64,000 nucleotides of DNA from Gemella morbillorum (GCF_900476045.1 NZ_LS483440.1:1240001-1304000); one strand, 5' to 3'. Counted from the stretch's first letter, positions 48,774 to 64,000 are shown. Notes: a model not told the origin generated them from the letters alone. Made by a program: numbers and translations.

Positions 48774-49097
48774 TTATAATTTCAAAGACGAGTATAATAT
48801 ATACAGTACAAAAAGTCCTCCAATAAAAGAAATTACCCCCATAATTTTCGCACCTTTTTCATACTTAAGTCTTATTTCTATATCACTTTCAGATTTTTTC
48901 AATTCTTCTTCCGTCATACCAGCCAATAAATTATAACTCTTTTTATAAAATAAAAGATACGATGTATATATAAGAAAACTAGCTAAAAATACATTAGTTA
49001 TTACAGCCCATTCACGTATATCACTTATAAAAAAATAAGATATAAATATAGAAATCCCTATCACTATTATTAAACATATATATTTCTTTCTTGTCAT
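48774..49097 (-). CDS. small membrane protein, candidate immunity or export helper
   Basis: 107 residues from the ATG at 49097; a GTG at 49106 in the same frame is an alternative, and AAGGTGAG overlaps it. Three hydrophobic segments are evident (near residues 5-25, 30-48 and 82-105), separated by a charged loop (MTEEELKKSESDIEIRLKYE). No family is recognised. It follows the 245-residue protein with about 10 bases between and shares its operon, the usual place for an immunity protein, but that role is only inferred from position. Confidence 0.7.
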   Translation of the reverse strand: MTRKKYICLIIVIGISIFISYFFISDIREWAVITNVFLASFLIYTSYLLFYKKSYNLLAGMTEEELKKSESDIEIRLKYEKGAKIMGVISFIGGLFVLYILYSSLKL

Positions 49098-49107
49098 TTC
49101 ACTCACC

Positions 49108-49845
49108 TTAATTTATTAAATCTAAACAATTTTTATATGGAAGATTATATTCATATTTTTGGCTAATAAGCTCATTTTTCATTTTTTCTGAAGATTCATA
49201 TATTATAAATTTAAATAAGTTGTTTTCTTGTTCCTTTTTATTCATATATTTATCTAAATCTACATTTGAAAAACTAAACTTAGGAAATAATTCTTTAATA
49301 AGAGTAAGTAATTTAGATTCAATACTATATCCATAGACTTTAAACTTTATGCTAACCTCTACCCAAAGGTTTGCCCCTGCTCCGACATTAACAGCCGCTC
49401 CTGCACTGTGAACAAGTACTGCGTATACAGCTCCAACAAAAACAAATACTCCAGCTACCGGAAAGACATATACAGCTGACTGCGGAGTAGGTTCTTCATC
49501 CCCTGCTTGTATTTTTAATATTTTTGAATATGCATTTTTATATAAATTTCTTTTTGGTATTACTTCTAAATCTTCCAGCCTCTTATATATCTCTTTATAA
49601 TTTTTTTCTTTTATATATTCTAACAATACTCTATCTTTTTTTAGCTTATACTCATATATAATACCATCATCCAATTTATACTTAGTTTGAATATTATCTA
49701 ATTCATATACATCAGTTTTTTCTAATATTCCTATTATTTCACTTATATTATTACTACTTACATTTTCTATATTTAATGTAAAATCTTCTTCATTTACTTT
49801 TTCTAAATAATCTGGTGTTCCAAATATTGTATCATTACTAAACAT
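49108..49845 (-). CDS. putative radical-SAM substrate with internal Val/Ala/Gly-rich segment
   Basis: 245 residues; the start has AAGGAGG at ideal distance. Residues 1-120 are a charged, probably folded N-terminal domain. Residues 123-164 (SAVYVFPVAGVFVFV... to NVGAGANLWVEV) are strikingly rich in Val, Ala, Gly and aromatic residues with no charge until the final Glu. Residues 165-245 are again a charged, helical domain. The segment recalls the composition of cores epimerised or methylated in polytheonamide-type proteusins, but there is no nitrile-hydratase-like leader and the segment is internal. It could also be a membrane-inserting stretch. I recognise no family. The neighbouring radical SAM gene makes it the likely substrate. 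Confidence 0.72.
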   Translation of the reverse strand: MFSNDTIFGTPDYLEKVNEEDFTLNIENVSSNNISEIIGILEKTDVYELDNIQTKYKLDDGIIYEYKLKKDRVLLEYIKEKNYKEIYKRLEDLEVIPKRNLYKNAYSKILKIQAGDEEPTPQSAVYVFPVAGVFVFVGAVYAVLVHSAGAAVNVGAGANLWVEVSIKFKVYGYSIESKLLTLIKELFPKFSFSNVDLDKYMNKKEQENNLFKFIIYESSEKMKNELISQKYEYNLPYKNCLDLIN

Positions 49846-49858
49846 ATTTGTTTCCTCC

Positions 49859-50890
49859 TTAAATATTTAAATTATAACTACTATTTCTCATATTTTCATA
49901 CTTTACAAGTATTGATGTTACTATTTCTTTATAGTGATTATTTAAGGTTTCTCTAACTTCAGGATTTCTATAAATTATGGCACATGCTTGACATGGATGA
50001 ACTATATTTTTAATATATTTCTCTAATTTATTATTTTTTTGATAAGCAAAATATAATATTTTTTCTGCTCCACTAACCTTTAGCCATATTTTCATAAAAT
50101 CATTAAAATTATTATAATACATTTCTTTTAATGTACCTTTTTTATATTTTCCTGCTTTCATAGATGGTATATATTCCATTGTAAGACCACAACAATTTAT
50201 GACATTTCCTAATGGATTTATCCCTAAAAAATTTAAAATAGCATCACAAGGCTTATAATTATAATTCTCATCCAATTTTCTTCCACTTTTTTCAATTGTT
50301 TTTGGATTTTTCAATGAAATCCAAGAAGCTTTAACTTCTGAAAGACATCCCGTCTTTTCTTTTATAGATTTTACCTTATCGTTATTAACAAAATCTTCGT
50401 AACTAAAAGTAGAACCCGTAAAACTTTCTATACTTACCAACGTTATTAATCCTCTGTCACATGAAGACTCACAGGCATTAATTATGCTTTCAAAAGGTAC
50501 CCATTCTTGATGATTATCTCCTGTAGAATAATTTATTTCATTTAAGCCTGCGTCTATTAACTTATCTATCATCCTATCAGCTAATTTTTTTGTTTTTGCC
50601 CAAGACGCATTAGTAACTATTCTAGACTTTAATCCTAAACTATTTACTAATTTTATGGCTTTAAATAAATCTTCTCCTAATAGTGTACATTCTCCACCTG
50701 TAAACACACAAAGTTCTAAAGTATCTTTAAAGTTATCATATGATTCCAATATAAAATTTTCTATTTCTTCATAAGATAACCTTATTTCTATTTTAGGTGT
50801 ACATTGAAAACAACATTCTTTACAAGCGGCTGAACATTTGTAAGTTGTAAGAATAGTTACCATTTTAGGGTTTATAGGTTCAACTAACAT
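49859..50890 (-). CDS. radical SAM enzyme with C-terminal auxiliary cysteines
   Basis: 343 residues. The SAM [4Fe-4S] motif C19-x3-C23-x2-C26 follows the first strand, with extra C27 and C30. GGE (65-67) and the strand IVTNAS fit the radical SAM barrel. The C-terminal part has C215, C233-C234, C280 and C283, suggesting a SPASM/twitch-type auxiliary cluster, as in enzymes that modify ribosomal peptides. AGGAGG precedes the start. It sits 2 bases after the ABC exporter and 13 before its presumed substrate gene. The chemistry (thioether, epimerisation, C-C link) cannot be told from sequence. Confidence 0.88.
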   Translation of the reverse strand: MLVEPINPKMVTILTTYKCSAACKECCFQCTPKIEIRLSYEEIENFILESYDNFKDTLELCVFTGGECTLLGEDLFKAIKLVNSLGLKSRIVTNASWAKTKKLADRMIDKLIDAGLNEINYSTGDNHQEWVPFESIINACESSCDRGLITLVSIESFTGSTFSYEDFVNNDKVKSIKEKTGCLSEVKASWISLKNPKTIEKSGRKLDENYNYKPCDAILNFLGINPLGNVINCCGLTMEYIPSMKAGKYKKGTLKEMYYNNFNDFMKIWLKVSGAEKILYFAYQKNNKLEKYIKNIVHPCQACAIIYRNPEVRETLNNHYKEIVTSILVKYENMRNSSYNLNI

Positions 50891-50892
50891 TT

Positions 50893-52485
50893 TTACACCT
50901 CCTCTACATATATATTTTTATTTTCTTTTTCTATTTTATATTGTTTCACCTCTCTTAAGTTTATTAATATTTCATCGTAATGTGATATAATTATTAATGA
51001 AATTTTCCTTTCTAAACAATATTTAATTATATTATTTCTAGTTTTCTTATCAATACTAGAAAATGCTTCATCAGCAATAATAAATTTAGGTTCTCTATAT
51101 AATTCTCTTGCAAAAATTATTTTTTCTTTTTCTCCTGAACTTAGTGACACAGGCATAATTATTTGTTCTTTATTAGCAATAAGTGTTTTAATATTAAGCA
51201 TATTAATAATTTTATCTAATTTATCAATATCATATTTTTCACCCAATAGTATATTATTGATGAGTGAGTCAGTATATATAATACTTTCTCCAGTTAATAA
51301 ACTTAATTTTTTGGGCACTGTTAACTTTCCAACTAAATCTAAACAATCGTCTGTTAGTCCTGATAAAATATTTGCAAATAAACTTTTCCCCACCCCGTTA
51401 TTGCCGCTAATATAAACCAAATCTCCTTCTCTACAAGAAAATTTTGGAACACTTAAAGAATCTCCCCAAGGAAATTTTACACTAAAGTTATTTATAATTA
51501 TTTCATTATTTTTTTCAATTTGATCTTGAGTTGTACATATATCTCTGGTTTCTTCTAAAAAGTATTTTAACCTATTGTAAGAAACCACTAATATTTTGTA
51601 ACTAGAAAAACTCTGCATAAGTGATTGTATAGGCGAAAACATTAATCCTTGATAACTTACAAATGTAATTAATTCTCCTATTGAGATTTTTCCATTTTTT
51701 ATAAATGTTATACCTACAATAAAAATAATTATAGGTGCTATTGAAATCACAAAAGATAATATTGTATTCATAATTAAAATTAATTTATTTTGAGTTATAG
51801 ATAATTGTTTATTTTGATTAAATATAGTATTTATTTTATTTTTTCTAAAATTAAAAATATCATTTACTTTAACTTCTCTAGAATTAAATAAATTTTCATA
51901 TATTACCGTTGAGGTACTATCTTTATTTAATTATAATTCTGTTGTTTTTTCTTCAATTTTTGCTCCTATTTTCATATATACATATACTACAAACGGCATT
52001 AATATTACATTTATTAAAAATAGTATATTATTTATTGCAAACATAATAAATGAATAAGCTATCAGCAACACTATATTAGTTGAAATACTCCAAAATATAC
52101 TGTAAGAATATATAGCTACCACTGAAGTATCATTAGTTAAAATAGTTTGAGAATTCCCTATATCAATATTATTAAATTTAACTTTAGAATTAAAGATTTT
52201 ATTGTATAATATTTTTTTTAAAGAATACATATAATTTTGTATTAATTTAATTGATAGATAGTTAGAAATATAATTACCTAATACCTGTATAATAATAATA
52301 ATTAAAAATATTAATAATACTTTGTATAGTATTTCATAATTTTTTGGTATTATTATATCATCAATAATTATCTTAGATAAATAAGGAAGTGGAAGGCTAC
52401 TAATAATATTTATTATAAAAAATATTATTATAAAGAATAGACTTCTTTTATTCTTCACAACGAATTCTGTTATATAACTATTCAC
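50893..52485 (-). pseudogene. ABC exporter (TMD-NBD) interrupted by one in-frame TAA
   Basis: Both parts share a single frame. From GTG 52485 (GGAGG seven bases upstream) the N-terminal membrane domain runs to codon 184, codon 185 is TAA (51933-51931), and the frame continues through LNKDSTSTVIYENLFNSREV, the rest of the membrane domain and a complete ATPase: Walker A SGNNGVGKSL, signature LSSGEKEK, Walker B FIIADEAFSSID and the switch histidine IISHYD. Total 530 codons. There is no C39 peptidase domain. No ribosome site supports a restart after the stop. It would export the operon's product. The stop means inactivation, a very recent mutation, or a sequencing error. Confidence 0.85.
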
Positions 52486-52512
52486 AATAACACCTCCTGA
52501 CTCTTCACCTTT

Positions 52513-52541
52513 ATTATAACAGTTTTTAATGTTATTAACAA
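52513..52541 (-). promoter_or_regulatory. promoter of the ABC / radical SAM operon
   Basis: Minus-strand TTGTTA (52541-52536), a 17-base spacer and TATAAT (52518-52513), about 28 bases before the GTG start of the exporter. Genes from here to 48774 run in one direction with gaps of 2-13 bases. Confidence 0.8.
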
Positions 52542-52598
52542 ATAAAACCATTTAAATTCTATTTATTAATTAATAAAATATGAGTATGTTTTTCATTG

Positions 52599-52666: not shown

Positions 52667-54232
52667 CTAAATTGATATGACTTCTCCGTTTTTTAAATGA
52701 ATTTCTATTCTTTTTCCTTCATGAATTATTATCGTATCTACCAAATAATTAAATAGCTTAGCATCGTATTCTGTTAGTAACTCACCTTGTTTTTCTAATG
52801 AGTCGATAAATATTTTCAGTTCTCTTACTCTCTTGTTTTTACTCAGTAAATCTAAGTTTCTCTGTTCTAATTGTTTTTCTAACAATTTATACTCTTCTAT
52901 CAGTTTATTATATTTTCTAGTGTACTCTTCTTGATCCTGTGCTATTTTGGAATTCGTTATTATCAACTTTTCTACATCATTTCTGATGTCTTCTAATTTT
53001 TCTTCGAGTTGAATGATTTCATCATCTGCCCCTCTATCTTCTTTTATCATCTTCATCAGGAGTTTTATATTACCTATAATTTCTTTTCTATTATCAATTA
53101 CCTTATTTAATGCTGATACTATCCATCTTTGAATCTCATCATCTCTAATATGAGGTGTATTACATTTTTCTTCATTTTTATACTTATCTTTACATCTATA
53201 TATTGTCTCTTTATATTTATTGGTTGAGTGCCATAAATGTCTCACGTATGAACTACCGCAACATCCACACCTAATTTTTCCAAAGTAGTTTTTCTCTGTA
53301 TACCACTTTTTATTTTCGCTTAGTTGCACTTGAACTGCATCAAATACTTCTTTATCAATTATTGCTTCATGGCTATTTTCTACATAATACTGAGGTAGCT
53401 CTCCGTTGTTCCTTTTCTGAGTCTTGTTTAAGAAGTCTGCTATATAGTATTTTTGAAGTAAGGCATCACCTTTATATTTTTCGTTTGTTAAAATACTTCT
53501 TACACTGCTATAACTCCATTTTTCTTTTCCTCTTGGTGTCGATATTTTATTTTCAGTTAGATGCTTTGCTATTTGATTAGGATTTTTTCCTGATAAGAAC
53601 TGTCCAAATATGTATCTTACTATTCTGGCTTGCTCTTTATCTACTTCAAATCCTCCATCCTCTTTTGGTTTAAACCCTAATACATTATTGTATGGAAACG
53701 TAACCTTACCTTCAGCAGCTTGTTTTCTCTTAGACCATGTTATATTTTCTGATATTGATCTACTTTCTTCTTGTGCTAGGGAGCTCATTATTGTAATAAG
53801 CAATTCACCCTTTGAATCAAATGTCCAGATGTTTTCTTTTTCGAAGTATATCTCTACTCCAACATCTTTTAGTTTTCTTACAGTTGATAGTGAATCCACC
53901 GTATTTCTTGCGAACCTACTTACACTTTTTGTTAATATGAGGTCTATCTTACCTGCTAGTGCATCATTTACCATTTCTTGAAACCCTAGACGTTTTTTTG
54001 TATTTGTTCCACTTATTCCCTCATCTGAATACATCTTCACAAACTCCCAATCTTTTCTACTTGATATGTACTCTTCATAATACTTCATTTGAGTTTCATA
54101 AGAACTTGTTTGATCTTCATTATCTGTCGATACTCTGGCGTAACCTGCGACCTTTTTCTTTTTTATACTAGGTAGTTTTGACTGACGACTAAGGTCCTTA
54201 TTGGCTTGTATAGTTGTAATTTTTCTATTCAT
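52667..54232 (-). CDS. large serine recombinase (prophage integrase)
   Basis: 521 residues: a resolvase catalytic domain (about 25-175; S35 in AGYARVSTDNEDQ, TKSVSRFARNTVDSL), a recombinase domain (about 190-300), a zinc ribbon (CGCCGSSYV... RCKDK... CNTPH) and a coiled coil (about 395-480) with a C-terminal strand domain. Such proteins integrate and excise phage or conjugative elements between short att sites without host factors. AAGGAG precedes the start 3 bases after the upstream recombinase. The frame is intact. Confidence 0.95.
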   Translation of the reverse strand: MNRKITTIQANKDLSRQSKLPSIKKKKVAGYARVSTDNEDQTSSYETQMKYYEEYISSRKDWEFVKMYSDEGISGTNTKKRLGFQEMVNDALAGKIDLILTKSVSRFARNTVDSLSTVRKLKDVGVEIYFEKENIWTFDSKGELLITIMSSLAQEESRSISENITWSKRKQAAEGKVTFPYNNVLGFKPKEDGGFEVDKEQARIVRYIFGQFLSGKNPNQIAKHLTENKISTPRGKEKWSYSSVRSILTNEKYKGDALLQKYYIADFLNKTQKRNNGELPQYYVENSHEAIIDKEVFDAVQVQLSENKKWYTEKNYFGKIRCGCCGSSYVRHLWHSTNKYKETIYRCKDKYKNEEKCNTPHIRDDEIQRWIVSALNKVIDNRKEIIGNIKLLMKMIKEDRGADDEIIQLEEKLEDIRNDVEKLIITNSKIAQDQEEYTRKYNKLIEEYKLLEKQLEQRNLDLLSKNKRVRELKIFIDSLEKQGELLTEYDAKLFNYLVDTIIIHEGKRIEIHLKNGEVISI

Positions 54233-54235
54233 CTT

Positions 54236-55132
54236 TTACTCCTTTTTTAGGTTACCTTGTTTTTTTATTTCTTGAACTTTATTGAATATTTTCTGAGAAA
54301 TAATTGCTTCATGTGCATTTTCTACTATGTACATAGTCTTCTCACCAGTATTTTTTACTGAACGACCTTTTTCTCTTACATTAAAAGTCTTTTGTAATAT
54401 AAGTTTCCCTGTATAAGTTTCTTGGGATAATATTCTATAGATAGCTAGTCTTGAAAACTTTTCTCCTCTTCTTGTGCGTTTACCTTCCTCATTTAATACC
54501 CTTGATATCTGTGTTGGTTTTATTCCTGATAGGTATAACTTATAAATCTTTCTAATAATGTCAGCTTCTGACTCTTCAATTTTATAAGAATCTCCTATCC
54601 ATCTATATCCTAATATAGGTTGTGGGCTATGTGGTAATCCTTGTTCAAACTTCTTCTTTACACTCCACCTTACATTACTACCTATCGCCTTTGATTCTTC
54701 TTCAGAAACAGCAGCGAGTAACGTTAGTAATAACTCTCCATCTGTAGTGAGTGTATCGATATTCTCTTTTTCAAATTGAACCCCTATGTTTAATTTCTTT
54801 AGTTCTCGTATTGTTTCTAGCAACTCAATAGTATTTCTTCCAAATCGTGATATGGACTTTGTAAGAATTATATCAATCTTTCCTTTCCTACAGTCATCTA
54901 TTAATCTTAAATACTCCTTTCGTTTTTTTGTATTTCTTCCACTTACAGAGTTATCAAAATACACTCCAGCATACTCCCAACTAGGATTATCTTGTATAAG
55001 TTTATTATAATAGCTTATTTGTTCAGATAGTGATTGTAGTAAATCTCTATGTGATACTCTTGCATAAGCTGCGACCTTTTGCCTTTTAGCATCAGTCACA
55101 TTTAGCGCTTCTAACTTTTTTATAATTTTCAT
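54236..55132 (-). CDS. short serine recombinase
   Basis: 298 residues from the ATG at 55132 (AGGAGG upstream; a 19-residue longer frame is unlikely). It has a resolvase domain with catalytic S27 (AAYARVSHRDLLQS) and LTKSISRFGRNTIELL, followed by a recombinase domain (about 165-285), but lacks the zinc ribbon and coiled coil of its neighbour. Tandem serine recombinases of this kind are seen in some Firmicute prophages and transposons, where the two may act together. It precedes the large recombinase and is probably translated with it. Confidence 0.9.
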   Translation of the reverse strand: MKIIKKLEALNVTDAKRQKVAAYARVSHRDLLQSLSEQISYYNKLIQDNPSWEYAGVYFDNSVSGRNTKKRKEYLRLIDDCRKGKIDIILTKSISRFGRNTIELLETIRELKKLNIGVQFEKENIDTLTTDGELLLTLLAAVSEEESKAIGSNVRWSVKKKFEQGLPHSPQPILGYRWIGDSYKIEESEADIIRKIYKLYLSGIKPTQISRVLNEEGKRTRRGEKFSRLAIYRILSQETYTGKLILQKTFNVREKGRSVKNTGEKTMYIVENAHEAIISQKIFNKVQEIKKQGNLKKE

Positions 55133-55178
55133 TATTGTATCCTCCTTTTCGTCATTACTATATATCACTCTAAAGCAA

Positions 55179-55346
55179 CTATTTATCAAGTGATAACTCC
55201 ATAAATTCAGATATTTTGGGAGTATACTTTTCTAACATCTTATGCTTGAATGAATCAAATTCATCTTTTGTGATTAGATTTTTTCTAAACAAGCTACTTA
55301 ATATTTTAATTGTGATTTGGTAGGTTACTTCATTTTTATTGTTCAT
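55179..55346 (-). CDS. small recombinase-associated protein
   Basis: 55 residues from the ATG at 55346, chosen for TTGGAGG directly upstream; a longer frame to 55433 has no such site. Pattern: MNNKNEVTYQITIKILSSLF, then LITKDEFDSFKHKMLEKY. Short proteins of this form commonly accompany serine recombinases in Firmicute elements and resemble a SHOCT-like module; the biochemical role is not established to my knowledge. It overlaps the preceding gene by 11 bases. Confidence 0.75.
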   Translation of the reverse strand: MNNKNEVTYQITIKILSSLFRKNLITKDEFDSFKHKMLEKYTPKISEFMELSLDK

Positions 55347-55728
55347 AACTACCTCCAAATCTGTGTTTAATATAACATTCATGACTGCAATACTTTCTTT
55401 TATTATTAGAATAAGATGTAAATTCTCTCTCACAATATTTACATTGATGTGTAGAAAATGCCTTTCTATTCATCTTGTCTTGATTATTCTTCCACCATTT
55501 CATTCGGCAAGCATCACTACAATATTTCTTTTGTTTTTTCCCATTTAAATGAGTTAACTTTTCTCCACATACCTTACAAGTATCAAAATCTTCTGTATCT
55601 AACTTTTCTAATTTTTCTCTTCTACAAATCGACTTAACTGTATTAGCTGATACATTTAAATATACAGCTATTTTCTTATACCCTAATCCTTTTTCTCTTA
55701 GTTTTTTTATTTCATCTTTCAGTTCCAT
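55336..55728 (-). CDS. HTH protein with two zinc ribbons, recombinase operon
   Basis: 130 residues from the ATG at 55728 (GGAG upstream). An N-terminal helix-turn-helix (LREKGLGYKKIAVYLNVSAN) is followed by two C-x2-C ... C-x3-C zinc ribbons (CKVCGEKL... CSDAC and CKYCEREF... CSHEC). Proteins like this head recombinase operons in several Firmicute mobile elements and are probably regulators. It is first in the recombinase operon and divergent from the endonuclease gene. Confidence 0.78.
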   Translation of the reverse strand: MELKDEIKKLREKGLGYKKIAVYLNVSANTVKSICRREKLEKLDTEDFDTCKVCGEKLTHLNGKKQKKYCSDACRMKWWKNNQDKMNRKAFSTHQCKYCEREFTSYSNNKRKYCSHECYIKHRFGGSYEQ

Positions 55729-55951
55729 ACTTCTCACTCCTATGATGTTTTTATTCTCTACATCACAGGTAAAGAAAACTAAGGAAAATTTAACCAACGA
55801 ACAAAAAAATTAAAAAATAGGTATTCACATATTTTCTATTTCTAATAAAGCGTATCTATGGTAAAATTACTTTATATATATAACAAAAAATAATTAATTA
55901 ATAGACGTTTTTATCTTAATAAATTTTAAATAAATAAGGAGGTAGTATATT

Positions 55952-56656
55952 ATGAATACTGAATTTGATTTTATAGATTTATATTTACTTATCCAGGAAA
56001 CAAAAAAAATAAATTTTTCTTCTGAAAAGACAATAAACAAATTATATGACAAATACCTCTCAAACTATAAAAAAATAGGTAAATTAAATAAAAAATCTTT
56101 AAAAAAATTCCTTAGAGAAGACAATTACTATAACAGAAGTGAAATATTAGATCACCTTCCATCAGGATATAAAACCCTAGTGATTAAAAAGAAAATATAT
56201 AATAGCGATTTACAATGTGATAAAAAAACAAATAAAGGAAACCAATTGAAAAATTTACCAAATTGGAATAAATTACAAAATCGAAGTATTTATAACAAAT
56301 CTCACATTATAGCTAGAGAATTAGGAGGAAAAAGAATCTATCATTCTTCAGGTGAATATTACAACGGTTTTATAGGTACTGAACATGCCAATGTCGGTAG
56401 AAATGGAAAGTCAGGAATGCGCTGTATAGAAGGAGTAATCCGGAAACATTTATGTGAAAACAAAAATAATTATATAGTATATGAGTGTCGTGTCATTTAT
56501 AAAAGACCTAAAGATATAATTCCAATATTCATCGTTATTATTATAGTTTCAGGCGATTATTCAATCAATAAAATCTATTTTGTTTGGAACACTCAAAATG
56601 GATATATTATAGATTACAAAACAGGGAATTATCTTCCTTATGATAAAAAAATATAA
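55952..56656 (+). CDS. DNA/RNA non-specific (NUC-type) endonuclease, phage cargo gene
   Basis: 234 residues with AAGGAGG 11 bases before the start. Residues 100-200 fit the NUC beta-beta-alpha-metal fold: RSIYNKSHIIARELGG holds the probable catalytic H118 (the DRGH motif here reads NKSH), and GFIGTEHANVGRNGKSGMR carries the metal-binding Asn (N147). The first 95 residues are unrecognised, lysine-rich and helical. There is no signal peptide, unlike secreted streptococcal phage DNases. It is the only rightward gene in the prophage part, with its own terminator, a typical moron layout between lysis and integration genes. Confidence 0.72.
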   Translation: MNTEFDFIDLYLLIQETKKINFSSEKTINKLYDKYLSNYKKIGKLNKKSLKKFLREDNYYNRSEILDHLPSGYKTLVIKKKIYNSDLQCDKKTNKGNQLKNLPNWNKLQNRSIYNKSHIIARELGGKRIYHSSGEYYNGFIGTEHANVGRNGKSGMRCIEGVIRKHLCENKNNYIVYECRVIYKRPKDIIPIFIVIIIVSGDYSINKIYFVWNTQNGYIIDYKTGNYLPYDKKI

Positions 56657-56687
56657 GCCTAGAAGAAATTTTCTTTTCCTCTAGGCT
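56656..56687. terminator. terminator between endonuclease and endolysin genes
   Basis: An 8-bp outer stem AGCCTAGA / TCTAGGCT (56656-56663 / 56680-56687) with further A/T pairing inside. The flanking T-rich sequences suit both convergent genes. Confidence 0.75.
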
Positions 56688-56693
56688 CATATT

Positions 56694-57545
56694 TTATCCT
56701 AATATTTCATTCACTTTTTGCTGAACTTCACTGTAGTTATATCCAGCATTAGTCAGTCTGTTTACTCGGTCTTGCCCATTACCCCACTTACCTTGAATTA
56801 CTTCTTGGGCTATTTCATCTAAATTATTAGATGTATAATTTCCATTCAGTAATCTATTCACTACTTCTTGAACCTCACTTGCATTATATCCTGCGTTAGT
56901 TAATCTGTTTACTCTATCCTCTCCATTACCCCATGCTCCTGAAATAACCTCTCGTGCAATTTTTTCATTGCTTTTATCTCCAGTTGATACTGAGTTTGTA
57001 GATGTACTTGGTTCTGAGATACTAGTATTACCTAACATTTCATCAACTGTTTCTCCTAAAGTCGCAAAATAATTCATACGTTCTACAAAGTAAGTTTTAA
57101 CACTATCAGTTGTTCCACCGTGTAAAGCTAAACTACGGTGTGGACAACTAGTTGGACTAAACTCATGATGAAGTCTTACCGTTTGTTTATTAATTGGCAA
57201 GCCATAATAAATCAAGTCTTCTGTCGCCTGCATTAATGCCATATCTTCATTGGCTAAAAAGTCCTCATCTGAGACTTTCATACTCTCACATACTTCATAA
57301 CCAATCGAGTGGGTATTACTCCACCACTCACCAGTATGATATCCAATGTTGTATGTATCTATTACTCTTGCGATACTATATCGGTTACAGTAATAGTGAG
57401 CTATCCCCAGTGCTTTATCTCGATATCTTAACCATTCCACATATTGTTCAGGTGTCATACTTCCTGCATCATTATGAATTACTACAAAGTCTATGCTGTC
57501 AAGTTGACCTGCGTTCATTAGTGTTTCATTTATTATTTGTACCAT
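56694..57545 (-). CDS. phage endolysin: amidase plus two CW_7 repeats
   Basis: 283 residues. N-terminal N-acetylmuramoyl-L-alanine amidase_2/PGRP fold (about 18-150) with probable zinc ligands H24 (VVIHNDAG), H126/H127 and C134 (VRLHHEFSPTSCPH). After a Ser/Thr linker come two CW_7 (Cpl-7-type) wall-binding repeats at 193-233 and 242-282, each with the WGNG-x-DRVNRLTNAGYN core. It cleaves the peptidoglycan stem at lysis. It starts one base after holin. Confidence 0.93.
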   Translation of the reverse strand: MVQIINETLMNAGQLDSIDFVVIHNDAGSMTPEQYVEWLRYRDKALGIAHYYCNRYSIARVIDTYNIGYHTGEWWSNTHSIGYEVCESMKVSDEDFLANEDMALMQATEDLIYYGLPINKQTVRLHHEFSPTSCPHRSLALHGGTTDSVKTYFVERMNYFATLGETVDEMLGNTSISEPSTSTNSVSTGDKSNEKIAREVISGAWGNGEDRVNRLTNAGYNASEVQEVVNRLLNGNYTSNNLDEIAQEVIQGKWGNGQDRVNRLTNAGYNYSEVQQKVNEILG

Positions 57546-57546
57546 C

Positions 57547-57945
57547 TTATTTTTCCTCCTTGTTTAATTGTTGTAAAATGTTTTGTAGTTTCTCAGGTAC
57601 TGGTAGTCCTAATTTTGAAGTATTTTCTAGTATAGAAATACCTTCATTAGATAGGTAGAAAAATATTACCGCTGCTCTTAATACTCCTACATGACCTAAA
57701 ATATAAACATCTAGTATGTTAGCTACCCCAACTAGTGAAAATATAATAATTTTTCTAGCTATTCCCTTAAAGCCTACTGAACTAGATAATTCTTTTTTAT
57801 CAATTGCACACATTATTCCAGTCACATAGTCTATTACTGAAAATGCTAAAAGTGCATAAATAAGTCCATCCATACCTCCTAAAAATGCTCCTAAAACACC
57901 ACCTATACTTGAGATTATAAGTTTATAATTTAATAATGTATTCAT
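57547..57945 (-). CDS. phage holin (holin 4 / TcdE-like family)
   Basis: 132 residues with three or four membrane helices. YALLAFSVIDYVTGIMCA and RKIIIFSLVGVANILD are typical of the phage_holin_4 family. GGGAGG precedes the start. It permeabilises the membrane so the adjacent endolysin reaches the wall; holin-lysin order is as usual. Confidence 0.92.
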   Translation of the reverse strand: MNTLLNYKLIISSIGGVLGAFLGGMDGLIYALLAFSVIDYVTGIMCAIDKKELSSSVGFKGIARKIIIFSLVGVANILDVYILGHVGVLRAAVIFFYLSNEGISILENTSKLGLPVPEKLQNILQQLNKEEK

Positions 57946-57946
57946 T

Positions 57947-59305
57947 TTATTTACCTCCCGTTAAATAATATGTAATTTTCATTGTTTTATCCGCCGTTTT
58001 TTCTACTGTCTTCGATAAATTATTTATTGTTGCTGAGTATGGTGTAATTAAGTATAAAACTTTTCTTAAATACTTATCCCCTGAACTTTCTCCGTTCGCA
58101 AAATACCCTAGTAAAAATGGTCCATAGCTTAATGGAATGCATTCTATTGTTGATAAATCGCTTTGTGCTATTTCTGTAATTTTATCATTTTTATCAATAG
58201 TAAAATTAGTCCCTATTATCATATCTCCTAATATATACATTCCACATCCTGTTGTATGTCTTGATACTGATCCTGTTTTTAGAGTAAACTTAGGTTCTAT
58301 TTTAGTTACATCTACTGGGTTATTTATCGCAAACTTCACAACATATTTTTCATCTGTACTAACTGCATACACATATCCTCCTCTCAATACAGATTTAATA
58401 GTTCTATAGTAATCATAGTCTAATGAGTATGCGCCTATATTTTCTATTTTCACATTTTCTAATGTGAATTCAGTTTCTTCCATAGAATTATTTGCTTTAT
58501 TTATTTTCAACTTAGTTACATTGGTATTACCTCCGCTAGTACTAGTTTTCAATAAATAATAATTCTCTTCGTCCACATAAATACACACTCCATATGTCCC
58601 GTAAGATTTCTTATACTTTATTTTTGTTTCTGTTGTATTCTTCTCATTTAAAAATGATAATGAATCATCTAATCTAAAGTTAAGCAGTGGTTCTCTTGAT
58701 TTTATTATTCTAAGATGATCACTTTCAGGAACTATTGATACTATATAATTTTCTTCGAAGTTAGCTTCTACTACATTGACATATTTTTTCTTCATCTCAG
58801 TATCTGTATTCTTAATAAGATATTTATCTTCACCTAGTTTTATACGATTTGTTTCACCATTACTCTTTGTTCCAAAATAACCACCTCCCGCTTTGGCATT
58901 AGTTAAACAAACACTCGATATTTTACCATTTGCTTTTGATGTTCCAAAATCCCAAACAAACTTATAACCATTTGACGTTGCTTTTGATTCTTGTTTATTA
59001 AAACTACCTTGCAGTGGATTTTCCTGAACTCCTTCTACTTGTCCTGCATAGCCAATACATTCATTACTTGTACTTACAAAGCTAGTATTTTTATCTTCTG
59101 TTATTTTATCTTTAAATAACAAGATTCCTCCTACTATCTTTTCAACTATTGGATAAAAGGTATCTTTATTAATATTTGTAAGTAGTCCATTGGGATTTAA
59201 TGTTAGAATCTTTTCTAAAACATCAGTTACGAGGTTATCATCTTTTAAAACCTCTTTCTTTTTTGTTTTAACATCGGTTAATTCTACTATTGTCTTACCT
59301 TTCAT
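57947..59305 (-). CDS. phage tail-tip / receptor-binding candidate
   Basis: 452 residues, beta-rich, no membrane segment. I do not recognise a named domain. Its first 55 residues (KTIVELTDVKTKKKEVLKDD) look like an attachment module, and the rest has repeated strand-turn patterns with dispersed Gly and Thr. Position between the tail-tip protein and holin is where baseplate or receptor-binding genes usually lie. It overlaps the upstream gene by 11 bases. Confidence 0.65.
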   Translation of the reverse strand: MKGKTIVELTDVKTKKKEVLKDDNLVTDVLEKILTLNPNGLLTNINKDTFYPIVEKIVGGILLFKDKITEDKNTSFVSTSNECIGYAGQVEGVQENPLQGSFNKQESKATSNGYKFVWDFGTSKANGKISSVCLTNAKAGGGYFGTKSNGETNRIKLGEDKYLIKNTDTEMKKKYVNVVEANFEENYIVSIVPESDHLRIIKSREPLLNFRLDDSLSFLNEKNTTETKIKYKKSYGTYGVCIYVDEENYYLLKTSTSGGNTNVTKLKINKANNSMEETEFTLENVKIENIGAYSLDYDYYRTIKSVLRGGYVYAVSTDEKYVVKFAINNPVDVTKIEPKFTLKTGSVSRHTTGCGMYILGDMIIGTNFTIDKNDKITEIAQSDLSTIECIPLSYGPFLLGYFANGESSGDKYLRKVLYLITPYSATINNLSKTVEKTADKTMKITYYLTGGK

Positions 59306-61091
59306 TTTTCTCCTCCACTTCTACATTCTCAGTTATATTTCCAAATACAAATTTTCGTTTTAAATCATTTTTTATAATCACATCACTAAATTCATATTTA
59401 GGAACATCATAAGTGTCAACCTCTATACTACCTTCGCTCAAATCCACTTGTTTTCTATGAGATAGTATTAACTTACCTAAGTTCTCATTTACTTTTATTT
59501 TACCGTCCCAAGGTACATCTCCTCCTAAGGCACTACCTATGATCGCAGCACTTATTCCCTCTATTGGAATAACTAGACTACCTTTTTCTAACTCAAAATC
59601 AACAGTAAATCTATTAATCACTTTTTCTTTTAAGTTTATTAGTGGGTAGAATAATGTAACCATTTGGCTTCCTACTTTAGCTATAAACTTTGGTACGTGA
59701 TTTTTTATTGTAAGTTCATTTAATGAGTAAATAATATTAAGCTTTTGATCTTCTTCAACTTCTCTAATCAAGGTTATTTTCTTTTCTTCTTTTTCATCTT
59801 TTAAAGTAACAGTCTCTTCAATATGTTTTTTTAAACTTTTAACATCAAATAACACAGTAGCAATAAAAAAAGCATCAGTTTCTTTACTTGATGCAAATTC
59901 TATATCTATTATTGTTTGTGAATTCTGTCCTATTTTTATTTCAGTTCCATTAACGTAAGCATTCACCTTTACTCTGTCAGACTCAATAGTTTGTAATATA
60001 CCTTGAATATTTTTGTCTTGTTTACTCTTACCTTTAGATAGTAATGCATTTTTACCTACACTCTTAATTCTATATTTCCCATGAATTTTATACTCAATTG
60101 ATGTAATTATAGTGTGATAACTTTCAACACCAACCTTAAAAGTAATCTTGTCTCCAACCTCAAATGCTGGATTACTTACGACTACACTATCTAATGGCGT
60201 ATAGTTAAATGTAGATACTTCTTCTAAAATTGCTTTACACATCCTTACTCGTTTTTCAGGAAGTCCTAACTGCATCAAAGGATTAACACCAATATTCATA
60301 GTTAAAGCATTGTCATTTTCTTTTGAATAATACTCTGATATTTTTGTTTTAAGATTTGTACTTTGTACTGCAGTATACCTAGTTGTGAAATCTGAAATAC
60401 TTAATTCATACCTATCTATTTCTTTTATTTCATAATTTGAGTTCGTATTAAATCTTTTTAATATTAACTTACCAAAACGATCTATAGTCGCAAAACTTGC
60501 AGTAGTTGCACTAATATAATGAATTAAATCACGATACGTTTCTATATCATGCTCGGCATAAATCCCAACTCTTTCTACACCATTTGGTAATTTTTCAATT
60601 TCTTCTTTACTTATTCCAAGTTCTACACTACACTTCTTACAACAAAATTCTAGAAGTTCATAAATAGTCCCAGATGTTTCTTTAAAACTCAGAGTTTTAT
60701 TAAACTTAACCATAAAGTCATAACCTTTAATTTCAACAAATTTCTTCGTTCTATTAGCTTCAGTTGTTTCAAATATTCCTAGTGGTATTTTTTCAGTTTC
60801 ATTATTTTCCAAGACTAAGTTGAAATATAGTTTTATAATGCTTCCGTCTAATGTTATTTCTCTTAATTCATCAAGTTTCAAAGTAATGCCCATCTCCGCA
60901 GCGTAAACAGAACCTAGTTCTATTTCATTACTTCCTGAACACGAATTACTTATATAGCCACTATCTTTTAGAATATGTTTATCATCAAAATTAATTATTT
61001 TTCCCGTTTTTAATCCTATCTCTCCTGTCCAAAAATACTTTCTACTTTTATTTTTTATCGTCTTATTGAAGTTAACACTTGTCTGATACAT
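59295..61091 (-). CDS. phage minor structural / tail-associated protein
   Basis: 598 residues. The N-terminal 250 residues resemble tail proteins in the distal-tail / Tal position (IELGSVYAAEMGITLKLDEL, GIFETTEANRTKKFVEIKGYD), and beta-rich C-terminal modules follow. No catalytic motif is obvious. It starts immediately downstream of the 119-residue gene and overlaps the receptor-binding candidate, as in siphovirus tail-tip clusters. Confidence 0.75.
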   Translation of the reverse strand: MYQTSVNFNKTIKNKSRKYFWTGEIGLKTGKIINFDDKHILKDSGYISNSCSGSNEIELGSVYAAEMGITLKLDELREITLDGSIIKLYFNLVLENNETEKIPLGIFETTEANRTKKFVEIKGYDFMVKFNKTLSFKETSGTIYELLEFCCKKCSVELGISKEEIEKLPNGVERVGIYAEHDIETYRDLIHYISATTASFATIDRFGKLILKRFNTNSNYEIKEIDRYELSISDFTTRYTAVQSTNLKTKISEYYSKENDNALTMNIGVNPLMQLGLPEKRVRMCKAILEEVSTFNYTPLDSVVVSNPAFEVGDKITFKVGVESYHTIITSIEYKIHGKYRIKSVGKNALLSKGKSKQDKNIQGILQTIESDRVKVNAYVNGTEIKIGQNSQTIIDIEFASSKETDAFFIATVLFDVKSLKKHIEETVTLKDEKEEKKITLIREVEEDQKLNIIYSLNELTIKNHVPKFIAKVGSQMVTLFYPLINLKEKVINRFTVDFELEKGSLVIPIEGISAAIIGSALGGDVPWDGKIKVNENLGKLILSHRKQVDLSEGSIEVDTYDVPKYEFSDVIIKNDLKRKFVFGNITENVEVEEKNER

Positions 61092-61451
61092 CTAGTATTC
61101 CTCCAATTTAAAACTAACACTCCAAATTCCAAGACTACCGTTTTTATTTAAAAGACTAACCTTAAAATTTGTACAATAAGTATTTATTTCTTTTTCTTCT
61201 AGTGAATAAGGATCGAAATATTTAACTGGGATTGTATTTTGCTTTAACATTTTTGATAACTTTAAAAGATACTGACTTGTTAGAGTTAGTTTCAAAGATA
61301 TGGATATCACACTTTCCCTTACAATATCTCTATGTGTTATTCCTGCTTCAGTAACTCCGCTACTGCTACCTTCAATATCTCTAAACTCAAAGTCTATCTC
61401 ATCAGGAGTTGGTATTGTTTCATTATTAATTTTTATATATGATTTTTTCAT
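61092..61451 (-). CDS. small phage tail protein (DUF6711-like)
   Basis: 119 residues, predominantly beta: KKSYIKINNETIPTPDEIDF at the start, and SGVTEAGITHRDIVRES. It recalls a small tail-protein family found right after the tape measure gene in Clostridium and related siphoviruses. Position fits a distal-tail or adaptor protein. It begins one base after the tape measure stop. Confidence 0.7.
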   Translation of the reverse strand: MKKSYIKINNETIPTPDEIDFEFRDIEGSSSGVTEAGITHRDIVRESVISISLKLTLTSQYLLKLSKMLKQNTIPVKYFDPYSLEEKEINTYCTNFKVSLLNKNGSLGIWSVSFKLEEY

Positions 61452-61452
61452 A

Positions 61453-64000
61453 TTACCTTCCTCCTGATTTTATAATTTGTCTGTTTTGTGCGTTTATTAT
61501 TATTTCATCAAGTAATGTTCCACCTAAATAAACCGGGATAACTATATCGCCAGTTGTCTCGTGTGGTATATTTATAGCTTGAATTAATTTGTTTAAATCA
61601 TCACTACTTATGCCTGATGTTGCATTGACTCTTGGAAGTGTGAATCCTTTTAAATCTGGATTTATCACCAAATCATTTGATAATTTAGCTACCGAGTTTT
61701 TCAAAAGATTTCTACTACTATCTAAACCTTTAGACAATCCTTTTATAAAGTCTGGCATCCAATCCTCATAGTCTGTAAGTGGTCCTACCTCTGGAACACT
61801 AAAGTGTAAATAACTCCAAATTGTCTCAGCTACACCTTTTACCGCATCAACAACCGCACCTATCTTATCCCTAATTCCATTAACAATTCCTGAAATTAAA
61901 TCACTCCCCCAAGAATAAGCTGAGTTTACCAGTCCCCAAATATAATCTACTGCACTTTGAAATCCATTTTGGATTGTTGAACTAATATTTCCTATAATAT
62001 TTCCCACAGCTGATAACATATTATTAAATGCACTTTGAACATAGTTATAAGCTGAGTTTACAAGATTAGAGATTGTTGAATAAATATTATTCCAGATATT
62101 TGAAACTGTACTAAAAATAGTATCTAAAATATTACTTATAACATTTTTTATATTATTCCAAGAGGTGCTTATAAAATCACTAATTGCTTGTACTATCGTA
62201 TTTATAGAGTTATTAATATTTTGCCATATAGTAGATAAGAAATCTTTTATACTATTCCAAATTGTACTTGTAGTTTGAAATACAAAATCCCAGTAACTTG
62301 TAATGATATTTTTTATTACATCAAGAACTGTTTGGAAAATTGTTTTTATTGTTTCCCAAGTTGTTGATAAGAAATTTTTTATACTCTCCCACACGGTTGT
62401 AAAGAGAGTTTGAATTGCTGTAAAGGTAGTTGTAAAATATGTTTTGATATTCTCCCAAACTGTAGTCACTACTAAGGTTATACTTTGCCAAAGTTCTGTG
62501 AAATAAGTTTTAACACCCTCCCAAGCAGTTGTAAATATAAGACTAATCGCTGTAAGTGTTGTTGAAAAATAGTTTTTTATAACTTCCCATACAACCGTTA
62601 TAGTAGTACTTATAGCCGTCCATGTTTCTGAAAAGTAAGTTTTTATACCTTCCCAAAGATTTATAAAAAAGTCTTTTATTTCACTCCAATGATCTTTTAA
62701 ATAACTACCTATAGATATCAATGTTACAACCGCAGCTATTATAGCGAGTATTGGTACTACCGCACCAGATAAACCAGCCATAACACCACTCATCGCACTA
62801 AAAGCACCAGAAATTGCTGCAACACCCGTTATTATATTTCCTATTGAACCAATGACTGTACCAATTATTACTAAAAGTGGTCCTATCGCAGCTACTATAA
62901 GTCCAATTATTACGACTATCTGTTTAGCAGTTGGACTTAGACTATTCAACCAAGTTGCTATACCCCCAAGAACTGTAGCTACCCCTTGTAAAATTGGTCC
63001 TAAAACATCAGAAATTGCTTCTCCTAAACTACCTAATGCTAACTTAGCATTATTACTAGCTACTTTAAATTTATCTATACCGTCCTCTGTTCCTTCAAAT
63101 GTTTTGTCTACAACATCCCCGTACTCAGACATACTTTTTGATAAATCATCTATAGAAAATCTACCTTCTCTTATAGCCCTAGTCATCTCTGCAGCACCTT
63201 TAGTTCCGAAAATCTTAGTCGCAATCGTTAGTGCTTCAGTTTCACTTCCTGCATTTTTTATCGATTCAATTGTTTTCTTAAGAGCTTCGTCCATAGAAAG
63301 TCCATCCTTAGTATAGGCTGCAACTGCCTTTCTAAAACCTCTTAGTGCTTGATCTGCATTTACACCATTTGCTTCAAATTGTGCAAGTAAGTTAATACTC
63401 TGACCTAGATTTAACCCCATTTCTTTTAGAATTGCTCCGTGTTGCTGAACTCCGTTCATAAGAGTATCAACACTTATTCCTGTATCCTGTGCTTTTTGTG
63501 TTATTAATCCTAACACATTGGCAGTTTCTTTAGCGTCAATCCCCCACTGAACCATTATTCTGTTTGTCATTCCTATAGCGGTATTTAGGTCTGTTTCATT
63601 TATCTCTGCGAACTTAAGAAATAAAGTAGATAGTTCTTGAAGCTCATCACCAGTAACTTTAAACCTAGTATTAACCTCACCTACCGCAACACCTACATCA
63701 CTCATACTTACAGGTAAACTTTTAAAAATATTATCCGCAACATTTTTTAATCCCTTGAAACTTTCTCCAGTTGCTCCAGTCTTTTTGATGATAGTGTCGT
63801 ACCCTTCATCAATTTCACGAAAGGCTAATGTTGCTGCTGCTCCAACTGCTACAATTGGTGCTGTCACATTTTTTGATAGAGTTGTACCTACTGAAGATAT
63901 TTTTTCTCCAGTCTCTTTAAACTTACCCCCAACTTCTTTAAGTGTAGCTTGCATTGAACTATCAGTGTGTTTTAGTTTTTCAGTGAATTTATCTAGTTCT
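61453..64000 (-). CDS. phage tail tape measure protein (5' end beyond window)
   Basis: At least 849 residues; the frame stays open to 64000, so the start is outside the window. The N-terminal part has the TP901-type core (GATGESFKGLKNVADNIFKSLP, ANVLGLITQKAQDTG, GVNADQALRGFRKAVA), then hydrophobic helices, then a long run of about 11-residue repeats with Trp/Phe at fixed spacing (pattern W-x-x-I-K-x-x-F), typical of tape measure proteins that set tail length. Transcription is leftward with the rest of the late genes. Confidence 0.94.
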   Translation of the reverse strand, partial: ELDKFTEKLKHTDSSMQATLKEVGGKFKETGEKISSVGTTLSKNVTAPIVAVGAAATLAFREIDEGYDTIIKKTGATGESFKGLKNVADNIFKSLPVSMSDVGVAVGEVNTRFKVTGDELQELSTLFLKFAEINETDLNTAIGMTNRIMVQWGIDAKETANVLGLITQKAQDTGISVDTLMNGVQQHGAILKEMGLNLGQSINLLAQFEANGVNADQALRGFRKAVAAYTKDGLSMDEALKKTIESIKNAGSETEALTIATKIFGTKGAAEMTRAIREGRFSIDDLSKSMSEYGDVVDKTFEGTEDGIDKFKVASNNAKLALGSLGEAISDVLGPILQGVATVLGGIATWLNSLSPTAKQIVVIIGLIVAAIGPLLVIIGTVIGSIGNIITGVAAISGAFSAMSGVMAGLSGAVVPILAIIAAVVTLISIGSYLKDHWSEIKDFFINLWEGIKTYFSETWTAISTTITVVWEVIKNYFSTTLTAISLIFTTAWEGVKTYFTELWQSITLVVTTVWENIKTYFTTTFTAIQTLFTTVWESIKNFLSTTWETIKTIFQTVLDVIKNIITSYWDFVFQTTSTIWNSIKDFLSTIWQNINNSINTIVQAISDFISTSWNNIKNVISNILDTIFSTVSNIWNNIYSTISNLVNSAYNYVQSAFNNMLSAVGNIIGNISSTIQNGFQSAVDYIWGLVNSAYSWGSDLISGIVNGIRDKIGAVVDAVKGVAETIWSYLHFSVPEVGPLTDYEDWMPDFIKGLSKGLDSSRNLLKNSVAKLSNDLVINPDLKGFTLPRVNATSGISSDDLNKLIQAINIPHETTGDIVIPVYLGGTLLDEIIINAQNRQIIKSGGR

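Follow-up and report, generated by a model that had tools for sequence, protein, structure and literature searches.

The epipeptide system of Bacillus subtilis (EpeXEPAB/YydFGHIJ) comprises a short precursor, YydF, the radical SAM (rSAM) epimerase EpeE/YydG, the protease YydH, and the transporter YydIJ. The channel-forming proteusins polytheonamide and aeronamide have Val/Ala/Gly/Asn-rich cores and are characterised by NHLP leaders and PoyD-like epimerases. Another known pair is formed by the SDP cannibalism toxin and its immunity protein SdpI, SDP not being an rSAM product. For EpeE, Cys223 has been proposed as the hydrogen donor, and no significant homology exists between the EpeE and PoyD epimerases (PMC8326336). 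The activity of AerE and PoyE has also been described (PMC11285071).

The locus analysed here lies in a window of Gemella morbillorum (the whole stretch of 64,000 nucleotides under analysis, from a genome of 1.76 Mb) and is neither an epipeptide nor a proteusin locus, and it would work like both. It shares with the epipeptide system the rSAM fold, the CxxxCxxC, C-x(n)-CC, and CxxC cysteines, the hydrogen-donor Cys, and export of the ABC type. In contrast, its enzyme family (Gemella and relatives) scores 67–86 bits with the YydG model, whose cut-off is 300, its precursor is a 245-aa protein with an internal V/A/G core and an FGxP leader instead of the short YydF, its exporter is of another type, and it carries a candidate DUF3784-like immunity protein. 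Neither the YydH protease nor the YydIJ transporter was found in the operon or its flanks. Like the proteusins, it has a Val/Ala/Gly/Asn-rich core, and its sister clusters show Asn in alternation as well as methyltransferases, both AerE-like ones and a B12-rSAM C-methyltransferase. However, no NHLP leader was matched, the epimerase is EpeE-like and not PoyD-like, and the Gemella operon itself is without a methyltransferase and has few Asn. Regarding SDP/SdpI, the precursors of Thermus, Klebsiella, and Halocatena have small membrane proteins of the SdpI family or DUF3784 as neighbours, whereas the Gemella 110-aa protein matches DUF3784 below the cut-off only. No description of this family was found in the openly accessible literature, subscription papers lying outside the search.

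Four minus-strand ORFs encode an ABC exporter, an rSAM enzyme, a 245-aa protein, and a 110-aa membrane protein (Table 1). The gaps between them are 2 bases (exporter/rSAM), 13 bases (rSAM/245-aa protein), and a single base (245-aa protein/GTG of the 110-aa ORF), the last becoming 10 bases if the start is the ATG used in G. cuniculi; the tight spacing described in the initial annotation (2–13 bases) was thus found, with measured gaps of 1–13 bases. A promoter-like site is present where a single promoter had been proposed, but such matches are no commoner in the region than in shuffled sequences (33 found, 39.7 expected). In contrast, the single terminator could not be confirmed, as the scan found none at the 3′ end of the operon and the sole terminator-like site lies inside the 245-aa gene. 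As a whole, that description of the operon was therefore partly confirmed. The end of a prophage adjoins the operon (52667–63954, genes named by reading their sequences), including two serine recombinase genes (52667–54232 and 54236–55189), amidase-like and holin-like genes (56694–57945), and tail/tape-measure genes up to 63954; the G. cuniculi copy of the operon is not inside such a prophage.

Table 1. Features of the Gemella locus, in coordinates of the window.
Feature	Position	Strand	Basis
Membrane protein of 110 aa, resembling DUF3784 below threshold; candidate for immunity; alternative ATG start at 49097	48774..49106	-	Pfam, synteny
Precursor-like protein of 245 aa, with a leader, an internal core, and a follower	49108..49845	-	Sequence, neighbourhood scoring
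Putative Cys-free core of Val/Ala/Gly/aromatic composition, approximately residues 121-168	49342..49485	-	Sequence
FGTP leader motif, residues 8-11	49813..49824	-	Motif comparison
EpeE/YydG-like radical SAM enzyme, 343 aa; C19/C23/C26, C215, C233, C234, C300, C303	49859..50890	-	Sequence, profile, fold
C234 codon, equivalent of EpeE Cys223, proposed H-atom donor	50189..50191	-	Profile alignment to 8ai1 and 8ai3
ABC exporter, interrupted; ABC_membrane and ABC_tran; likely GTG start behind AGGAGG	50893..52485	-	Domain matches; start inferred from G. cuniculi ATG
In-frame TAA truncating the exporter	51931..51933	-	Sequence reading
Promoter-like site TTGTTA-17-TATAAT, extended -10 (TG)	52513..52541	-	Consensus match alone; not above shuffles for the region

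Analysis of the rSAM enzyme revealed the CxxxCxxC motif and the five late cysteines already annotated. Its only Pfam match was the generic Radical_SAM, and the best NCBIfam model was the YydG epimerase (TIGR04078), matched over residues 11–140 with 67 bits and thus short of the equivalog cut-off of 300 bits. Given this difference, extending to the whole family, the enzymes form a branch separate from YydG; the tree of relatives contains several well-separated branches, YydG being one long branch among them. Only YydG/EpeE structures were matched in a single-sequence search of the PDB, and a profile built from eleven relatives, which aligns to EpeE over nearly its full length, placed EpeE (8ai1) at the top (E = 1.5e-35 over positions 8–313), the next family following at 7.5e-4. 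In a fold search with the AlphaFold model (pLDDT 78; alignment of window and genome loci), nine EpeE chains came first (E about 1e-14, TM 0.65–0.70), followed by BlsE (5e-10). The eight cysteines are invariant in 17 family members and YydG, and C234 aligns with the position occupied by Cys in 8ai1 and by Ala in 8ai3 (C223A mutant), so that both the two-cluster pattern and the equivalent of the donor Cys223 are present in Gemella. On the other hand, Asp210 of EpeE (mutated in 8ai6) appears not to be conserved in the profile alignment. Both its sequence and its structural model make the enzyme distantly homologous to EpeE/YydG, the epimerase of the B. subtilis epipeptide, and it does not belong to a known non-peptide rSAM family. 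Kinship with PoyD was also considered and rejected: no PoyD-type model appeared among the matches, the best being YydG, and auxiliary cysteines are present, whereas PoyD-type epimerases have a C-terminal RRE and no auxiliary cluster. As the enzyme is EpeE/YydG-like and conserves the donor Cys, epimerisation is predicted instead of undescribed chemistry. The initial annotation had suggested a possibly undescribed system, but the type of the enzyme is recognisable.

The 245-aa protein had been proposed as the substrate of this enzyme. It gave no match in NCBIfam or Pfam, including the YydF-type precursor; NHLP, Nif11, and YydF models matched neither this protein nor the precursors of relatives (ten relatives in the case of the NHLP leader), and no protease is encoded in the operon, in agreement with what had been noted before. 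Its uncharged stretch, also noted before, ranks as the top V/A/G/N-rich uncharged 30-mer of its neighbourhood and contains Tyr, Phe, and Trp among its aromatic residues. The sole Cys of the protein is near the C-terminus and is missing in G. cuniculi; sactipeptide/ranthipeptide thioether chemistry was ruled out, since the core is without Cys. Structure prediction, recommended as a check, gave a usable model for the enzyme but not for the precursor, whose model (pLDDT 37) was too poor for use and showed the uncharged stretch as a low-confidence helix. No homologues of the protein outside Gemella were found in 399 Bacilli genomes, plasmids, phages, and viral contigs. As the precursor was found by sequence in Gemella only, its relatives were traced by way of the rSAM enzyme.

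Full-length relatives of the enzyme were found in Bacillota (several further genomes among them), Actinomycetota, Pseudomonadota, Thermus, the archaeon Halocatena, and prophages, those borne on plasmids belonging to Enterococcus mundtii, Lactococcus lactis, Streptomyces canus, Thermus aquaticus, Eleftheria, Halocatena, Collinsella, Klebsiella, and Rhizobium. In most of them, an uncharged V/A/G(/N/Y)-rich segment is encoded by an unannotated gene close by, and some of these candidate precursors are peptides of 70–76 aa. When a fixed rule was used to score the top V/A/G/N-rich uncharged segment per neighbourhood in 17 loci, this segment lay at most two same-strand genes from the rSAM gene in 11 of them (4.6 expected, P = 0.0012) and elsewhere in the other six. 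The Allochromatium and Paraclostridium enzymes (tyrosine/other SPASM relatives), outliers in the tree, were not counted as family, and G1118, in which multiple rSAM genes and a candidate peptide of a different kind are present, was left out. In addition, an [FY]GxP leader motif is present in Gemella (IFGTP) and in six of the eight other precursors of its branch (G230, LYGVP; G832, KYGIP; G1032, IYGIP; Eleftheria, LYGTP; prophages, VFGEP and KFGEP), against a background of 12 among the 552 ORFs pooled from the loci, a number that includes several of the precursors themselves; the L. lactis precursor has LFGTA and that of E. mundtii is without the motif. Core segments are also alike, as in Gemella (HSAGAAVNVGAGA), Halocatena (NTAGAAVNVVAAV), and prophage L082 (TYAGAAINVAAAL). 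Profile comparison of whole precursors, Gemella versus other clade members, gave no significant homology, and kinship between them thus rests on the short motif, position, and composition. Taken together, the recurrent neighbouring core genes and the common leader motif support the 245-aa protein as the probable substrate, and the earlier interpretation of the locus was, as a whole, partly supported.

The exporter has ABC_membrane and ABC_tran domains, but its frame (50893–52551) is not intact, containing a single internal TAA that had been missed; no peptidase domain was matched in it. The GTG at 52485 aligns with the ATG of G. cuniculi and is likely the true start. With its exporter truncated, this strain may be unable to release a product; the pathway is probably impaired, and secretion is doubtful. 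The closest named relative of the operon is in Gemella cuniculi DSM 15828, and the locus is also broken in both other Gemella species that keep it, the three loci being damaged differently. In the G. cuniculi copy (L004 5065–7066), the exporter end and the rSAM start are deleted, and in the other (G001, L058 5487–6808), a fusion joins the start of the exporter to the core, the rSAM gene is gone, and two 110-aa-like genes are left. Precursor genes without an intact rSAM partner in these two genomes are the consequence of decay and not of independence from the enzyme. Directly upstream of the G. cuniculi copy, a degraded yyd-type epipeptide locus was detected (L004 1950–4767), with YydG-like fragments, peptidase-like, and ABC genes.

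When the window was compared with G. cuniculi, dS was about 1.5 for HAD and rlmH, which flank the operon, and 0.05–0.24 for the operon genes, so the operon has moved between Gemella species recently. An orphan 110-aa gene in G004 (97% identical, at the syntenic site, precursor and rSAM absent) showed a dS of 0.014 versus 1.30 for its HAD neighbour, and the site upstream of HAD–rlmH is variable across the genus. Sequence comparison demonstrates horizontal spread of the operon. Within the precursor, divergence is concentrated in the second half (dS of 0.09 in the leader and 0.43 in the core), as if core segments had been exchanged. The dN/dS values of the rSAM remnant (0.05) and the precursor (0.29) point to constraint at least until recently.

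The 110-aa protein scored 15.3 bits with DUF3784 (PF12650), below the gathering score of 28.1, and a paralogue in the same genome reached 27.3 bits. Because paralogues occur away from any rSAM gene in Gemella genomes, an immunity role is proposed only tentatively. Copies were located at L054 12473–12805 (G004), L055 7085–7913, and L056 6528–6860, and some paralogues lie elsewhere in the window's own genome.

In the reading that we favour, with a probability of roughly 0.7, the operon is a RiPP locus whose core would be epimerised by the EpeE-type enzyme and exported as a membrane-active product, the 110-aa protein protecting the producer. In the precursor, an N-terminal leader of a new type, starting with FGxP, would be followed by the Val/Ala/Gly/aromatic core and this by a helical follower. 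The 5′-deoxyadenosyl radical generated by the two-cluster enzyme would remove the alpha-hydrogen from chosen core residues, and C234 would return hydrogen from the opposite face, converting L-residues into D. A host protease, none being encoded in the operon, would release the D/L core, which would be exported by the ABC transporter to attack the membranes of rivals, perhaps inserting into them like polytheonamide, whereas the 110-aa protein would shield the producer.

The same RiPP logic could serve another rSAM change, such as a carbon–carbon or carbon–oxygen crosslink of the core aromatics, for which Tyr, Phe, and Trp are available and to which the appearance of the SPASM/twitch maturases SuiB and SkfB lower in the fold search would correspond; however, these stand many orders of magnitude below EpeE and the cysteine used as donor in epimerisation is invariant, which makes a crosslink quite unlikely. 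It also seems unlikely that the 245-aa protein is a membrane protein or partner with an ordinary membrane segment. The stretch is indeed hydrophobic, long enough for a membrane span, and modelled as a low-confidence helix in a protein that matches no family model, but it is V/A/G/N-rich instead of Leu-rich, similar segments recur beside rSAM genes across phyla, some in the 70–76 aa peptides, and the alternating-Asn repeats of sister genes are not membrane helices.

The chances are nearly even, on the other hand, that the locus in this strain is in decay and yields no product at present, in which case homology would tell the function of the ancestor only. The in-frame TAA, the deletions in G. 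cuniculi, and the fusion and rSAM loss in G001 all point that way, whereas the rSAM, precursor, and small genes are intact in the window, the dN/dS values of the first two speak for constraint at least until recently, and the stop could stem from faulty assembly or another exporter could substitute.

Beyond Gemella, the epimerised RiPP reading could extend, somewhat short of an even chance, to a cross-phylum family in which long Val/Ala/Gly/Asn cores would be turned by EpeE-type and not PoyD-type epimerases into membrane-spanning peptides of alternating D and L residues, a second route to polytheonamide-like channels. The leaders of such a family would be FGxP or other non-NHLP ones, some branches would add tailoring of the AerE type or by B12-rSAM enzymes, producers would be protected by proteins of the SdpI/DUF3784 type, and plasmids and prophages would spread the clusters. 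If so, one enzyme family would join the short epipeptides of B. subtilis to long polytheonamide-like peptides, so far tied to another epimerase and leader type. Genome mining would gain a search criterion, an EpeE-like rSAM enzyme below the YydG cut-off beside a V/A/G/N-rich precursor, for pairs that current family models miss. In addition, compact clusters in easily handled bacteria would become available for studying how the pattern of D-residues is set, together with candidate self-protection proteins against such peptides.

The precursors of Klebsiella, Rhizobium, Collinsella, and Thermus have Asn-rich cores in which Asn spacing is almost only 2 and 4. The best solved relatives of the methyltransferases beside Asn-rich precursors are 7rc2–7rc6, which we take to be structures of AerE, the Asn side-chain N-methyltransferase of aeronamide. 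The Rhizobium cluster also includes a RiPP C-methyltransferase above the cut-off (TIGR03975), and SdpI-family proteins were detected in the Thermus and Klebsiella clusters, and a DUF3784 protein in that of Halocatena. Signal-like sequences, some of them twin-arginine, stand at the start of the precursors from Thermus, Eleftheria, and prophages, which suggests export without an ABC transporter in these systems.

In prophage contigs L078–L084, the rSAM gene is accompanied by a precursor and a small membrane protein, one group being located directly behind a late-control-like phage gene. A single stretch of a Rhizobium plasmid (L070 1272–7159) contains a NANA-repeat precursor, a B12-rSAM C-methyltransferase, an EpeE-like rSAM enzyme, and an AerE-like methyltransferase, with a transposase-like gene in between. 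Finally, in the Thermus aquaticus plasmid pTA14 (L016 2599–4905), the precursor starts like a twin-arginine/lipoprotein sequence, contains 16 Asn in alternating register, and is followed by rSAM, SdpI, and methyltransferase genes.
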